A DNA stretch of 64,000 nucleotides from assembly GCF_000430705.1 (NCBI RefSeq), contig NZ_AUMN01000013.1:1-64000 (forward strand), in the 5' to 3' direction. The first letter of the stretch is position 1. Every line of letters begins with the position of its first letter. This DNA is from Arthrobacter castelli DSM 16402. Lineage in GTDB: Bacteria > Actinomycetota > Actinomycetes > Actinomycetales > Micrococcaceae. A program made the translations under genes and the position numbers. The notes under the pieces are model-generated. The model was not told where the DNA came from and searched no databases. It saw only the letters and a list, made by a program, of their open reading frames with translations. Positions 8,049 through 30,170 of the stretch are shown in pieces.

Positions 8049-9281
8049 TTAGTGGGCGACGGCGGCGGCGCCGTGCTCGTCGATCAGGGCGCCGCTGACA
8101 AACCGATCCAGGGCGAAGGGTTCGTTCAATTCGTGCGGCTCGTCGTGGGCAATAGTGTGGGCGAACGTGTAGCCGGCCGCCGGGGTCCCCTTGAACCCGC
8201 CGGTGCCCCAACCGCAGTTCACGTAGAGGTTGTCCACCGGCGTCTTGCCGATAATCGGCGAGGCATCCAGGGTGACGTCGACGACCCCGCCCCAGGTGCG
8301 CAAGACATGTGCCCGGGAGAACATCGGGAAGAGCTCGACGGCGGCAGCCATCTGTTCCTCGATGACGTGGAAGGAACCGCGCTGCCCGTACCCGTTGTAC
8401 GAATCCACCCCGGCGCCGAGTACCAGTTCGCCCTTGTGCGCCTGGGAACAGTAGACGTGGACGTGGTTGGACATCACCACGGTGGGGTGCACCTTTTCGT
8501 GCAGCTCGGAGACCAGTGCCTGCAACGGATGCGACTGGATGGGCAGCCGGAATCCGGCCATTTCGGCCAGCAGCGAGCTGTGCCCGGCGGCGGCCATCCC
8601 GACCTTGCCGGCGTTGATCCGGCCCAGGTTGGTTTCGACGCCGGTGACCCGGTTGCCGTCCTTGATGAACCCGGTGACTTCGCAGCCCTGGATGATATCC
8701 ACGCCCATCGCATCGCAGGCCCGGGCGAAGGCCCATGCCACATGGTCGTGCTTGGCGATGCCCGCCCGCGGCTGCCAGGTGGCGCCCATCACCGGATAGC
8801 GGATGTTGTCGGAGGTGTTCAGCACCGGGCAGATCTCTTTGATCTCGTCCGGCTCCACCCAGTGCGAGTCAACGCCGTTAAGCTGGTTGGCGAAGACCCG
8901 GCGGGTGCTGTCGCGCACTTCCTGCAGGGTGTGGGCCAGGTTCAGCACCCCGCGCTGGCTGAACAGGAAGTCGTAGTCGAGTTCCTCGGGCAGTCCCTCC
9001 CACAGGTTCAGCGCGGTGTTGTAGATCGCCGCGCTCTCGTCCCAGAGGTAATTCGAGCGGATGATGGTGGTGTTGCGGGCCATGTTGCCGCCGGCCAGCC
9101 AGCCGCGCTCCAGGATGGCGATGTTGGTCATCCCGTGGTTCCTGGCCAGGTAGTACGCGGTGGCGAGTCCGTGTCCGCCACCGCCGATGATCACGGCGTC
9201 ATAGGAGGATTTCGGCTCGGCATTGCGCCACAGGAATTCCTTGTGCTCGCCCAGCGAATCGTGGCTCATCGTGGTGGTCAT
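8049..9281 (-). CDS. soxB: sarcosine oxidase beta subunit
   Basis: The 410-residue catalytic flavoprotein subunit that oxidises sarcosine. An N-terminal Rossmann motif ([20 protein letters not shown], about residues 29-48) binds non-covalent FAD. The segment [14 protein letters not shown] near residue 175 contains the histidine region that, in the corynebacterial homologue, carries covalent FMN. The C-terminal [16 protein letters not shown] and [16 protein letters not shown] are typical of DadA-like amine oxidases. It overlaps the glyA stop by 4 nt (ATGA) and starts the soxBDAG block. Confidence 0.96.
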
Positions 9282-22950: not shown

Positions 22951-24327
22951 TCACTTGTCCCGCAGCGGCGCCCCGCAGGTTTCCTTGGCGCACAGCACCG
23001 CGCTCAGTGCTATGGCCGCGGCTGCCATCAGGTACCAGCCGGGTGCGAGGCTGGTGTTCAGTACGCCGATCAACAGCGTGGCCATGAAGGGCGCCGTGCC
23101 GCCGAAGAGCGCATTGGACAGGTTGAAGCTGACCGCGAACCCGCTGTAGCGGATGGAGGTGGGGAACATTTCAGCCAGGAAGCTGGGCAGCGTTCCATCG
23201 TTCAGGGTCAGCATGGCTCCCAGTGCCATCTGGACCAGCACCACCACGGCGAAGCTTCCGGTGTCGAGCAGCATGAACGCCGGCACGGTGAAGACGATGA
23301 ACAGCACCGAGGCGCTGATCAGCATTTTCTTCCGTCCAAAGCGATCGGAGGCATGCCCGGTCAGGAAAATGAAGCCAATGTAGGCGATCAATGCGAACGT
23401 GGTCGCCATAAAGGCCTGTGTGGAATCGAACCCGAGTTCCTGGGTCATGTACGTCGGCATGTAGCTGAGCAGCATGTAGAACCCGACGGCGTTGAGCAGC
23501 ACTGCGCCGATGGCAATCAGCAGGGTCCGCCAGTGATTGCGGAACATGGCACGCACGGGGGCCTTGACGACGTCGTCCTCCTGGGCCAGATTGCGGAAGG
23601 CGGGCGTATCTTCCAGCCGGGTGCGGATGAACCGTCCGATAATGCCCATCGGCGCGGCGAGGAAGAACGGAATCCGCCATCCCCAGCTCTCCATGGCCTC
23701 GGCCGGCAACACACCGTAGAGCATCGCGGCCATCAGCGAACCGAGTAGCAGACCAGTGGCAGTGCTGGCCGGAACGACGGCGGCAAACAGGCCGCGCTTG
23801 CCTTTGGGCGCGTATTCGACCAGGAAGACGGAGGCACCTGCATATTCGCCGGCAGCGGAGAACCCCTGCACAATCCGCACCGCCAGCAGCAGCAACGGCG
23901 CCAGCACGCCGACGGCGGCGTAGCTGGGCAGCAGGCCGATGGCGAAGGTCGACATCGACATAATCAGGATGGACAGCGACAGCGCGGTCCGCCGTCCCAC
24001 CTTGTCGCCAATATGGCCCCAGATAAAGCCTCCGGCCGGACGCACGATAAAGGAGACCGCGAACAACCCGAAGGTGGCCAGCAGAGCCGTCTCGCCGGCT
24101 GATTCGGGAAAGAATACGGCCGCTATAGTTGCCGCGAGGTAGCCGTAGACCGCGTAGTCGAACCATTCAACGAAGTTACCGATGAAGCTGGCAGCAACCA
24201 CGCGGCGCCGGGTCTTCCCGTCCACGATCTCCGGTGCCTGCTGCGGTGCCTGCTGTGCCGCCTGCCCCGGATCATCCGCTTTCCGCCGATGCGCAGTCGC
24301 AGCCGTTGGAGTTGATTGTTCACTCAT
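22951..24327 (-). CDS. MHS-family MFS transporter
   Basis: A proton-coupled importer of the metabolite:H+ symporter family, about 458 residues with 12 predicted membrane spans. Marks: FVEWFDYAVYGYLA in span 1, GHIGDKVGRRTAL in the first cytoplasmic loop, RIVQGFSAAGEYAGASVFLVEYAP and DRFGRKKML in the mid loop. Relatives carry betaine, proline, ketoglutarate or other small acids. The shared operator with creatinase makes creatinine, creatine or sarcosine the likely cargo (inference). Start uncertain between ATG 24327 and ATG 24339; neither has a strong ribosome site. The Gln/Ala-rich N-terminal tail is unusual. Confidence 0.9.
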   Translation of the reverse strand: MSEQSTPTAATAHRRKADDPGQAAQQAPQQAPEIVDGKTRRRVVAASFIGNFVEWFDYAVYGYLAATIAAVFFPESAGETALLATFGLFAVSFIVRPAGGFIWGHIGDKVGRRTALSLSILIMSMSTFAIGLLPSYAAVGVLAPLLLLAVRIVQGFSAAGEYAGASVFLVEYAPKGKRGLFAAVVPASTATGLLLGSLMAAMLYGVLPAEAMESWGWRIPFFLAAPMGIIGRFIRTRLEDTPAFRNLAQEDDVVKAPVRAMFRNHWRTLLIAIGAVLLNAVGFYMLLSYMPTYMTQELGFDSTQAFMATTFALIAYIGFIFLTGHASDRFGRKKMLISASVLFIVFTVPAFMLLDTGSFAVVVLVQMALGAMLTLNDGTLPSFLAEMFPTSIRYSGFAVSFNLSNALFGGTAPFMATLLIGVLNTSLAPGWYLMAAAAIALSAVLCAKETCGAPLRDK

Positions 24328-24348
24328 AGTTCTACCCATCTTCGGTGG

Positions 24349-24912: not shown

Positions 24913-25716
24913 CTATGTGCCGCCGAGCCGCTGGGTGACCTGACGGGCGGCGCGGACGCAGGCCTCGCCAATAGTTTTCACATTGTCCTCTTCGATCCGG
25001 AACTTGGGCGCCGGCGTCATCACGGCCGCCACGGTCGCCCCCCGGTGATCCTGCACCGGCGCCGCTATTCCCACTTCCTGGGGCGACGTTTCGCCGAAAT
25101 TGACGGCATATCCGCGCCTGGACACTTCGTGCAGCCGTTCGAGATAGGCGTCCAGCTGGTCATCACCACCGGGAACATTGTTCACGGTGTGGTCCTGGAG
25201 CAATTCACGCGTCCGTTGTTCACCTTCGGCCGCCAGGAACACCTGCACGGAGGAACTGGAGGCGGTGTTGTAGCGGGTTCCCAGGTCGGAGGTGTGCTTC
25301 ACCTCGAACCTGCTGGGCACCTGCTCCACGGAAATCGCCTCGGCGCCGTTCCACACCAGCAGCGCGCTGGTTTCGCCGGTGGTTTCGGACAGTTCCTGCA
25401 GCACCGGATAAGCGGCGCGCCGCACATCCATGTCGGCCAGCAACGGCCCGGCGAGCGCAATGATACCCAGTCCGAGCCGGTAGCGGCGGCTCGAGTCGCG
25501 CTCCACGACATTCTCCCGCTCCAGGGCGGCAAGAATTCTCGAGACAGTGCTCTTGTGCAGCCCGACAACCGGGGCAATCTCCGTCACACCAAGCAGCGGC
25601 GACGCGCTGCTGAAACAGCGCAGCACGGCAATGGTGTTCTCGATGACGGAGGTTCCGCGGGTGTCGGAACCGGTGCTGGGTGCGGCATCAGGCTGTGGAT
25701 TCATAGTGCCATTCAT
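24913..25716 (-). CDS. IclR family regulator of creatinine genes
   Basis: A 267-residue regulator. The N-terminal winged helix-turn-helix (about 22-85: SVIENTIAVLRCFSSASPLLGVTEIAPVVGLHKSTVSRILAALE) is followed by the IclR effector domain with SSSSVQVFLAAEG and EVSRRGYAVNFGETSPQEVGIAAPVQD. It is divergent from creatinase, with 154 bp between them, and the promoter there holds an operator that recurs at the MHS transporter. It is therefore the best candidate regulator of both, likely responding to creatinine, creatine or sarcosine. Start could be 25716 or the second ATG 25704. Confidence 0.9.
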   Translation of the reverse strand: MNGTMNPQPDAAPSTGSDTRGTSVIENTIAVLRCFSSASPLLGVTEIAPVVGLHKSTVSRILAALERENVVERDSSRRYRLGLGIIALAGPLLADMDVRRAAYPVLQELSETTGETSALLVWNGAEAISVEQVPSRFEVKHTSDLGTRYNTASSSSVQVFLAAEGEQRTRELLQDHTVNNVPGGDDQLDAYLERLHEVSRRGYAVNFGETSPQEVGIAAPVQDHRGATVAAVMTPAPKFRIEEDNVKTIGEACVRAARQVTQRLGGT

Positions 25717-25870: not shown

Positions 25871-27124
25871 ATGACAACCGTGGATGAACGCATCACCAGT
25901 GTTTCCGAGCTGGAGCGCCTCAAGGTGCTGCACAACGGCAGCAAGCAGCCGCTGACCTTCTCCGATTCCGAGTTCGAGCGCCGCCTGAGCGGGCTGCGCC
26001 GGATCATGGCCGCCAAGGACCTCGACGCCGTCGTGCTGACCAGCTACCACGGCATCAAGTATTATTCTGACTTCCTGTACACGACGTTCGGCCGGAACTA
26101 CGCACTGGTCGTCACCGCCGAAGACTCTGTCTCCGTCACGGCGAACATCGACGCCGGCATGCCGTGGCGCACCAGCTACGGCGCGAACATCGTCTACACC
26201 GACTGGAAGCGCGACAACTTCTACTTCGGCCTGCAGGAGGCCCTGCGCGAGCGCGGCGTCAAGGCCCGCCGGCTGGGTGTCGAGGACGACTTCCTGCCGC
26301 TGCTGACGCGCCAGAAGATCCAGGGCGCCTTCGAGGGTGCGGAGCTGGTCGACGTCTCCCAGGACGCGATGCGCCAGCGGATGTTCAAGTCCGCCGAGGA
26401 GATCGAGGTCATCAAGCACGGCGCCCGCATCGGCGACCTTGGCGGCGAGGCGATCAAGGCCGCCATCCGCGAGGGCATCTCCGAGTACGAGGTCGCGCTG
26501 ATCGGCACCGAGGCCATGGTCCACGAGATCGCGGCCACCTTCCCGGATCAGGAGGTCCGCGACACCTGGGTCTGGTTCCAGTCCGGCATCAACACCGACG
26601 GCGCTCACAACTGGGCGACCACCCGTAAGCTGCAGCGCGGCGACATCCTGTCGTTGAACTGCTTCCCGATGACCTCGGGATACTACACGGCGCTGGAACG
26701 GACCATGTTCCTGGGCCAGCCCGATCAGCGTTCCCTCGAACTGTGGAACATCAACGTCGAGGTCCATAACCGCGGACAGGAACTGATCAAGCCCGGCGCG
26801 GTCTGCAAGGACATCGCGGCCGAGCTGAACGAAATCTACGTCTCCCACGGACTGCTGCCCAACCGCACCTTCGGTTACGGACACTCCTTCGGCGTGCTCA
26901 GCCATTACTACGGCCGGGAAGCCGGCCTGGAGCTGCGCGAGGACATCGACACCGTGCTGGAACCGGGAATGGTCGTGTCCATGGAACCGATGATCACCGT
27001 GGCCGATGGCCAGCCGGGCGCCGGCGGCTACCGCGAACACGACATCCTGGTGGTCGGCGAGGAAGATGTAGAGAACATCACCAAGTTCGGCTACGGCCCG
27101 GAACACAACATCATCGAAGCCTAG
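25871..27124 (+). CDS. creatinase (creatine amidinohydrolase)
   Basis: Hydrolyses creatine to sarcosine and urea. The 417-residue protein has the creatinase/aminopeptidase (pita-bread) fold and matches characterised creatinases closely: TSYHGIKYYSDFLYTTFGRNYALVVT, NIVYTDWKRDNF, DTWVWFQSGINTDGAHNWATT with His246 equivalent to the catalytic His232 of the Pseudomonas enzyme, GYGHSFGVLSHYYGREAGLELREDIDTVLEPGMVVSMEPM, and GPEHNII at the end. Start at ATG 25871; an in-frame ATG at 25796 falls inside the operator and is unlikely. First gene of a creatinase-creatininase-BCCT-deaminase operon. Confidence 0.96.
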   Translation: MTTVDERITSVSELERLKVLHNGSKQPLTFSDSEFERRLSGLRRIMAAKDLDAVVLTSYHGIKYYSDFLYTTFGRNYALVVTAEDSVSVTANIDAGMPWRTSYGANIVYTDWKRDNFYFGLQEALRERGVKARRLGVEDDFLPLLTRQKIQGAFEGAELVDVSQDAMRQRMFKSAEEIEVIKHGARIGDLGGEAIKAAIREGISEYEVALIGTEAMVHEIAATFPDQEVRDTWVWFQSGINTDGAHNWATTRKLQRGDILSLNCFPMTSGYYTALERTMFLGQPDQRSLELWNINVEVHNRGQELIKPGAVCKDIAAELNEIYVSHGLLPNRTFGYGHSFGVLSHYYGREAGLELREDIDTVLEPGMVVSMEPMITVADGQPGAGGYREHDILVVGEEDVENITKFGYGPEHNIIEA

Positions 27125-27212: not shown

Positions 27213-28004
27213 ATGCCCGCCACCACGAACGTATACCTGGACGAACTCGACGCATTCACCTACCAGCAGCGGCTCTCCGCCAACGGAGGCGTGGTGCTTA
27301 TACCCGCCGGTGCCATCGAGCAGCACGGGCCCCACCTGCCCCTGAACGTCGATGCGCTGCTATCCCGCCGGATGGCCGGCGCCACCGCGGAGCAGATGGA
27401 CGGGCTGGTGGCCTCCCCCATCACCTATGGCTACAAGTCCCAGCAGCGTTCCGGCGGCGGCAATCACCTGCCCGGAACCACCAGCCTGGACGGGGCAATC
27501 GTCACAGCCATCGCCCGCTCCCTGACCGCCGAATTCGCCCGGCACGGCGCGCGGAAGCTCGCCTTCATTAATGGACACTTCGAGAACTACCAGTTCCTCT
27601 ACGAGGGCGTGGACCTGGCCCTTCGCCAACTCCGCGCCGAGGGTGTGGAAAACCTGAAGGTCGTGTTGCTCTCCTACTGGGATTTTGTCGACGACATCAC
27701 AATCAATGAGCTCTACCCCAACGGTTTCACCGGATGGGACCTCGAACATGGCGGCGTCCTCGAGACGTCGCTGATGCTGCACCTCTACCCGCAAATGGTC
27801 AACATGGACCGGGTGGAGGACATCGCCCCGGCCCAATTGCCCAACTACGACGTGCTTCCGGTCCGGCCGGAACTCACGCCGGCATCGGGGTGCCTCTCGT
27901 CCGCGGCCGACGCCACCGCCGACAAGGGAGAAATTCTGCTCAAGCGTGCCTCCACAGGAATGGCGTCGGCACTGCAGAAAGAACTAAGGAACGATCAACG
28001 ATGA
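27213..28004 (+). CDS. crnA: creatininase (creatinine amidohydrolase)
   Basis: Interconverts creatinine and creatine. The 263 residues keep the binuclear metal site of the family: Glu36 and His38 in GAIEQHGPHLPLNVD, Asp47, and His122/Glu124 in INGHFENYQF. WDLEHGGVLETSLMLHLYP adds the second conserved Glu region. Length and spacing agree with the Pseudomonas enzyme. It follows creatinase by 88 nt, a gap without a clear promoter, and its stop overlaps the BCCT start by 4 nt (ATGA). Confidence 0.95.
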   Translation: MPATTNVYLDELDAFTYQQRLSANGGVVLIPAGAIEQHGPHLPLNVDALLSRRMAGATAEQMDGLVASPITYGYKSQQRSGGGNHLPGTTSLDGAIVTAIARSLTAEFARHGARKLAFINGHFENYQFLYEGVDLALRQLRAEGVENLKVVLLSYWDFVDDITINELYPNGFTGWDLEHGGVLETSLMLHLYPQMVNMDRVEDIAPAQLPNYDVLPVRPELTPASGCLSSAADATADKGEILLKRASTGMASALQKELRNDQR

Positions 28005-29743
28005 TCCAAAACCAAAAGGAACAGGTGCCCGCCCGCAGCGACGCCCCGGGCCCCCACGAGCCCCAAGCCGACGCGCCCGATGGCGACATACTCGAAACCG
28101 AGCCGCCAGTTGCGAGGAAGCAGCGTGCCGTCGACGACACAATCATCAAATGGCTTGCCGTCATCGGCATCATCGCCATCCTGACCTTCGCCATCGTGGT
28201 GCCGGATGTGGCGGCATAGGCGATCAGCGCCGGGCGCACCTTCGTGACCGAATACTTCACCTGGTTCTTTGTGCTCTACTCGGTGCTGGCCCTTGGCATC
28301 TGCGGGTGGCTGGCCTTCGGCCGGTTTGGACGCGTCCGGCTGGGCGGACCGAAAGCGAAACCGGACTACAGCAAGTTCGCCTGGTACTCGATGTTGTTCG
28401 CCTGCGGGCAGGGCATCGGGCTGATCTTCTGGTCCGTGGCCGAGCCCATCATGCTCCAGGGCGGCAGCCCGCTCTTTTCGGGCAATGAAGCCAATACCGG
28501 CGACGGCGCCGTCGCCTGGGCCTATTTCCACTGGGGACTGACCGCCTGGGCCATGTACTGCATCGTGGCCATCTGCCTGGCCTATTCGCACTTCAATCTG
28601 GGCAAGAAGCTCACGTTCCGGGACGCTGTGGTGGACTTCTTCCCGGCCAAGTCCCGCCGCGCCGTCGGCCTCGTCCTCGAACTGCTTGCCATCCTGGCCT
28701 GCGTGCTCGGGCTCGCCACATCCTTTGGCTTCGCCACCTTGCAGTTCACCTACGGGCTGACATCCTTCACCGGGATCGAGTCAACGATGCCGGTGTGGAT
28801 CGGCGTCATCGTCGCCTTCGGCGCCCTGACAGCAGTCTCGGTCTACTTCGGGATCAGCAAGGGGATGAAACGGATCAGCGAAATCAACTCCGTGCTGAGT
28901 ATCGTGCTCGTTATCGCGGTGCTGGTCTTTGGCCCGCTGGTGTTCCTGGCCTCGACCCTGCTGCAAACCTTCGGGGTCTTCTTCCAGAACTTCCTGTCAA
29001 TGAGCCTGTGGTCGGAATCATCGGTCGCGGCCGAAGGGATCAGCGCCTGGCAGGACAGCTGGGCCGGCTGGTGGACCGTCTTTATTTGGTGCTGGGTGAT
29101 TGCCTTCTCGGCCTTCGTCGGCCCGTTCATCGCCCGCATCTCAAGGGGCCGGACCATCAAGGAATTCATCCTCGGAGTGACGGTGGTGCCGTCGCTGATC
29201 GTGATGGTCTGGATCGGCATCCTCGGGGGCGCGGCGCTGTACTACGACAATAACGACGACGGCGCGATCTCGGACGAGGTCGCCGAAAGCACGGAGAGCG
29301 GGTTGTTCGCCATGCTCGACTACGTGCCGGTGGTTGGAACGGTGCTGCTGGTCATCGCCACAATCTTGGTGGCCACTTACTACATCACCTCCCTGGACTC
29401 CGGGGTCCACGCATTGTCCAGCTTCGTGGCCTCATCGAAGAGTCCCAGCAAGGGCTTCCGGGTGCTGCTGGTGGCCAGTATCGCCGCCATCACCGTGGCG
29501 CTGCTGACGCTCGGCGGGGTTTCGGTCATTGGCACAGTGCAGACCGGAACCATCATCGGGGCATTTCCGCTGGCCTTTATCCTGATCATCATGTTCGTCA
29601 ATCTGATCAGGCGGCTGCGGCGCAATGAGGCTATTCTGCGGGTGGCCCAGGACCAGGTGCAGGAGGCATCCGCGCCTTCAGACGCGCCCCGGGCACCAGG
29701 ATCTGACGGCGCGGTTGGCTCGGACGGTGCCAGCCGTGAATGA
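28001..29743 (+). pseudogene. BCCT-family transporter interrupted by an in-frame amber codon
   Basis: A betaine/choline/carnitine-type transporter, 581 codons long if read through. Codon 73 (28217-28219) is TAG. Reading resumes in the same frame without loss: the upstream part ends IIAILTFAIVVPDVAA in the first membrane span and the next codons give AISAGRTFVTEYFTWFFVLYS, the expected continuation. A substituted CAG, GAG or similar codon explains this. The downstream part keeps FACGQGIGLIFWSVAEPI and further spans to the C-terminus. Translation could restart at GTG 28244, giving a 499-residue protein lacking the first span. Options: null allele, restart, amber suppression or sequence error. 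Location predicts creatinine, creatine or sarcosine uptake. Confidence 0.85.
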
Positions 29744-30170
29744 GCATCATTTCGACGCCGCCGTGGCCGCCGCGCGGAGCAGCTACCAGGGCGGCGGGCT
29801 CCCCATCGGCTCGGCTTTGGCCCGGGGTGGACGACTGCTGGCCTCGGCGCATAACGAGCGGGTGCAGCAGGGCGATCCCACCGCGCACGCCGAAATCGCG
29901 TGCCTGCGGCAGGCCGGCCGGCAGAGCAGCTACGCCGACACTGTCCTGTACACCACCTTGGCGCCGTGCGCGATGTGTACGGGAGCAATCCTGCAGTTCA
30001 AGATCCCCACGGTTGTGATCGGCGAAGCCGAAACGTTCGAAGGTGACCTGGCCCGGCTGCGGCAGGCCGGAGTGGAAGTCACGGTGCTCGATAACCGCGA
30101 ATGCATCGAACTAATGGGCCGTTTCATCGGGGAGCAACCACAGCTCTGGGCCGAAGACATCGGCGAGTAG
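29736..30170 (+). CDS. yeast-type cytosine deaminase-like enzyme
   Basis: A 144-residue zinc deaminase of the CDA fold. Ligands and catalytic residues are His51, Glu53 (THAE), Cys78 and Cys81 (PCAMC). It resembles fungal cytosine deaminase along its length, including GGLPIGSALARGG, LYTTLAPCAMCTGAI and a C-terminus FIGEQPQLWAEDIGE very like FCY1. GTG 29736 overlaps the BCCT stop by 8 nt. In a creatinine operon it might deaminate creatinine to N-methylhydantoin or act on another cyclic amidine, but cytosine remains the default substrate. Confidence 0.88.
   Translation: MNEHHFDAAVAAARSSYQGGGLPIGSALARGGRLLASAHNERVQQGDPTAHAEIACLRQAGRQSSYADTVLYTTLAPCAMCTGAILQFKIPTVVIGEAETFEGDLARLRQAGVEVTVLDNRECIELMGRFIGEQPQLWAEDIGE

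Follow-up and report, generated by a model that had tools for sequence, protein, structure and literature searches.

An in-frame amber codon in a BCCT-family transporter gene adjoining the creatininase gene of Arthrobacter castelli DSM 16402

We analysed a 64,000-nucleotide stretch of the A. castelli DSM 16402 genome (contig NZ_AUMN01000013.1, positions 1 to 64,000; hereafter the window), in which a gene of the BCCT transporter family, located in a creatinine/creatine degradation cluster, is interrupted by an in-frame TAG at codon 73. The codon was read from the window sequence at positions 28217-28219 of the plus strand, in agreement with an earlier note on this DNA. The probable explanation is an ordinary, very recent nonsense (null) allele in a conditionally used transporter. 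According to this explanation, a single mutation private to the strain or species would cause ribosomes to stop after 72 residues, and the gene would yield no working transporter. We infer from the sequence that transport would be lost through the TAG. The loss would be tolerated if the substrate were used only sometimes and if a transporter of the major facilitator superfamily (MFS), encoded nearby, imported creatine. The features of the interrupted gene are as follows.

28001..29743, plus strand: interrupted gene of a BCCT-family transporter, putatively for the uptake of creatinine/creatine; read past the TAG, it has 580 codons.
28001..28216, plus strand: the 72 codons ahead of the stop, predicted from the frame and an AlphaFold2 model to encode an N-terminal tail followed by helix 1 and the very beginning of helix 2.
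28217..28219, plus strand: amber codon TAG, in frame, codon 73.
28244..28246, plus strand: GTG, codon 82, a possible restart.

The first codon of the reading frame, ATG 28001, shares bases with the TGA of the upstream creatininase gene (ATGA) and aligns with the likely starts of three related loci (L009, L010, and L011). Counted from this ATG, the TAG is codon 73. If the TAG is treated as an unspecified residue, the frame is open over 580 codons up to the TGA at 29741-29743 and contains neither a second stop nor a frameshift. A profile search of the genome of DSM 16402 gave a PF02028 match of 455.8 bits across the stop, and the post-stop part alone scored 442.8 bits against a cut-off of 27, which places the gene in the BCCT family (PF02028; BetP, BetT, and CaiT types). 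BCCT chains of the Protein Data Bank (PDB) also align across the TAG, the trimethylamine transporter 8zw8 from query residue 53 and BetP from residue 23, over most of the length of the protein. Thus, the frame and the homology continue without any shift on either side of the stop, as the earlier note had stated, and the full-length membrane-protein frame is broken at codon 73. The window gene differs from the known BCCT types in that its clade adjoins creatininase and in that its post-stop fragment matches five BCCT models of NCBIfam, each of them below its cut-off (370.3 against 650 for betaine_BCCT; 357.4 against 407.55 for the general model TIGR00842). This shortfall is due in part to the scoring of the post-stop fragment only, the N-terminus being missing.

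The position of codon 73 in the protein was assessed with an AlphaFold2 model based on a 20-sequence alignment in which TAG was read as Q (mean predicted local distance difference test score, pLDDT, of 80.3; predicted template modelling score, pTM, of 0.80). The model contains a first helix at residues 36-66 and a second helix at residues 68-106, with a mean pLDDT of 89 for residues 71-80. Codon 73 is therefore predicted to lie at the outer start of helix 2, outside span 1, and not within the first membrane span, where the earlier note had placed it. A product ending at the stop would comprise the tail together with helix 1 and the opening residues of helix 2.

The stop is solitary among the orthologs compared. 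The genome of DSM 16402 (4.59 Mb in 49 contigs, completeness 98.95%) contains eight BCCT places, only one of which, the gene interrupted at codon 73, carries a stop. A search of 395 family-level genomes identified 54 orthologous places (matches at E ≤ 1e-140) in 53 genomes, and again the window gene was the only one with a stop. The aligned codon is a sense codon in all 68 named relatives (L009-L076; alignment ungapped from codon 82), in which it specifies A (24), S (14), D (8), E (7), G (6), T (4), N (4), or R (1). It is likewise a sense codon in the 29 family loci that were fetched out of the 53 other places, which are partly the same as the named relatives, and in the one other genome of the genus that was compared, apparently that of Arthrobacter sp. 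H14 to judge from the contig coordinates of L009 and L078. Loci L124 and L156 were left out of the comparisons. A plasmid search returned no place covering 80% of the BCCT query. The gene thus has the signature of a pseudogene with a premature stop and intact relatives. The column is variable, with eight kinds of residues, and nothing suggests a conserved recoding site.

Among the places listed for 119 genomes of the same order, at least one other BCCT gene carries a stop, a single in-frame TAA (G034:C67:4607-6064). Broken BCCT genes therefore occur elsewhere too.

The portion of the gene located after the stop shows no clear sign of relaxed selection in comparisons with L009. Nonsynonymous (dN) and synonymous (dS) divergence from this locus were 0.127 and 1.064, respectively, the latter being near saturation, and the G+C content at third codon positions (GC3) was 0.856. 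Private amino-acid changes in the BCCT protein numbered 18 in the window and 10 in L009 (two-sided binomial P of 0.18); the corresponding counts were 12 and 23 for creatinase and 16 and 9 for creatininase. The absence of a second stop, of a frameshift, and of clear relaxation indicates that the change is recent or not real. The earlier note had also argued from the lack of further downstream decay that the change would be recent, and this is supported, with no stop at this site in the relatives examined.

The note had listed four options, namely a dead transporter, a restart at GTG 28244, read-through of the TAG, and a sequencing error, of which the first and the last survive. The second-ranked explanation is a base-call or assembly error, the gene being intact in the cell, which we consider possible although clearly less likely than a genuine null allele. 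The assembly is a draft in 49 contigs, the gene is free of other decay as an intact gene would be, and no relative examined has a stop at this site. In 15 of the 68 named relatives the codon is one base away from TAG, so that one wrong base would be enough. Several points weigh against a genuine null allele. A wrong base call would give an identical sequence, and the absence of decay is equally expected under a sequencing error. The BCCT protein has more private changes than that of L009, an excess that is not significant and cannot separate a recent loss from a somewhat older one. A bare stop is also no proof of lost function, as low-level restart or leakage is possible. Against an error, no repeat of at least 14 bases was found in 27900-28600, and the matched parts of five protein families of the genome, to which detection was confined, contained no further internal stop. 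The seven other BCCT places, 121 ABC places (150 of 200 first-look candidates scored), and one creatininase place were free of internal stops. Single stops were flagged among 85 MFS places and among seven soxB-type places; both were natural terminators, a TAG closing an open reading frame (ORF) of 459 amino acids and the terminator of an ORF of 435 amino acids, respectively. This sample is thus not error-ridden, although a lone error may have occurred.

A restart past the stop, at GTG 28244 or later, leading to a shortened transporter from which helix 1 and the beginning of helix 2 are missing, appears improbable. The GTG is indeed present as codon 82, just 24 bases from the stop, and the downstream frame shows no clear relaxation. 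The LeuT-type core of BCCT transporters is formed by helices 3-12 and would persist, so that remnant activity is possible, although nothing favours it. However, the anti-Shine-Dalgarno pairing at this codon was -2.3 kcal/mol, which equals the median for 2000 positions drawn at random from the window (best 5%, -6.6; best 25%, -4.1). The test is coarse, since the true start, ATG 28001, itself falls only between the best 5% and the best 25% (-5.1 kcal/mol). The GTG is not a conserved start, as it is found in just 15 of the 68 relatives, 46 of which have GTC. In the AlphaFold2 model, its use would remove helix 1 along with 14 residues of helix 2, and the product would start inside the latter helix. 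A better-paired in-frame start first occurs at ATG 28553 (-5.5 kcal/mol), and its use would cost codons 1-184.

Read-through of the TAG, whether through a suppressor tRNA or through programmed leakiness, would yield a full-length transporter. It is the least credible of the alternatives, even though almost any inserted residue could work in view of the eight kinds of residues found at the site in relatives. Covariance models of Rfam gave 45 tRNA matches in the genome, and ARAGORN, run only around these matches and on the window, brought the total to 46 tRNA genes by adding one (Arg, tcg) absent from the Rfam set. The amber suppressor for which the earlier note had proposed a search was not found: none of the 46 tRNA genes detected at these loci, in a genome 98.95% complete, has a CTA (CUA) anticodon, and the only tRNA gene of the window is Arg cct. 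The model of the pyrrolysyl-tRNA synthetase PylS, which has a cut-off of 550 bits, scored no higher than 12.4 bits. TAG also terminates 15 of the 47 long ORFs of the window, including that of the neighbouring creatinase, the remainder ending with TGA (22) or TAA (10); these ORFs were called mechanically (at least 150 amino acids, GC3 above 0.7) and are largely non-overlapping. A suppressor tRNA, pyrrolysine insertion, and reassignment of TAG are therefore unsupported. No structured RNA beyond chance follows the TAG, the 114 nucleotides starting at this codon having a folding z-score of -0.07 with 95 of 200 shuffles as good, and the relatives examined all lack a stop at this site. It is also very unlikely that the amber codon acts as a functional switch, in which trace read-through or restart would provide a low, conditional level of a transporter, full length or devoid of helix 1, that would tune uptake. 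If this were the case, creatinine uptake would be tuned in this lineage.

The substrate of the transporter is suggested by the neighbouring genes, which are listed below with other features of the window.

27213..28004, plus strand: creatininase (TIGR04448, 333.3 bits against a cut-off of 235), whose stop overlaps the BCCT ATG.
25871..27124, plus strand: creatinase, intact ORF ended by TAG; best PDB match 1chm, creatine amidinohydrolase (E of 5.1e-166). The query used in profile searches started one codon ahead of ATG 25871.
24913..25716, minus strand: IclR-family regulator, divergent from the cluster.
22951..24339, minus strand: MFS transporter, intact (PF07690 at C13:23104-24183).
29736..30170, plus strand: CMP/dCMP-type deaminase, starting at a GTG and sharing 8 bases with the end of the BCCT gene.
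8049..9281, minus strand: sarcosine oxidase beta subunit (TIGR01373 at 8076-9254, 612.3 bits against a cut-off of 529.45).

The frames of the creatinase, creatininase, regulator, MFS, and sarcosine oxidase beta genes are all open, and a later step of the pathway, sarcosine oxidase beta, is thus encoded within the same window. A creatininase homolog is present in the flanks (up to 5 kb) of all 68 named relatives and a creatinase homolog in those of 59. All 29 fetched family loci also contain creatininase (flanks of about 1.5 kb). Conversely, neither gene was found within about 1.5 kb of the seven other BCCT genes of the genome (28-35% identical). The linkage extends across taxa, the record titles of the 68 relatives naming Actinobacteria (Arthrobacter, Glutamicibacter, Kocuria, and others), Halomonas, Billgrantia, Zobellella, Thauera, and Brachyspira. 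It is informative because the loci were picked by similarity of the BCCT gene and not by neighbourhood. The association of this BCCT clade with creatininase indicates that the window gene probably encodes a creatinine/creatine transporter.

The MFS gene adjoins the IclR gene, and homologs (62-85% identical) are found in the flanks of 19 of the 68 relatives. It may encode a second creatine transporter and may thus cover creatine uptake and render the BCCT protein dispensable. With flanks of up to 5 kb, 5 of the 68 named relatives have a deaminase homolog close to the cluster; the 29 family loci, with flanks of about 1.5 kb, have none. In the window, expression of the deaminase gene may be subject to a polar effect of the TAG.

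Strain-specific nonsense pseudogenes of catabolic transporters are of a familiar kind. The window gene shares with them a single stop in a conserved gene, intact relatives, and the absence of further decay, and differs solely by its identity. In Corynebacterium glutamicum ATCC 14067, creT is described as located in an operon with the creatininase gene and as coding for a putative MFS transporter, and a strain with a deletion of creT is reported not to grow on creatine (PMC8864220). CreT, described there as a putative MFS protein and not as a BCCT protein, and CrnT are comparable with the window BCCT gene by description, and CreT likewise with the product of the intact MFS gene located near the cluster. 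A study of Arthrobacter sp. Rue61a treats a BCCT protein under osmoprotection and reports growth of this strain on creatine and not on creatinine (PMC3534580). Among the literature matches listed, no title names a BCCT transporter for creatinine; we make no claim of novelty for the link between BCCT and creatininase.

The stop codon itself matters little, although it warns that the creatinine transporter of this genome is probably dead or miscalled. Of greater use is the creatininase-linked BCCT clade that the analysis brought out, the substrate of which is directly testable.
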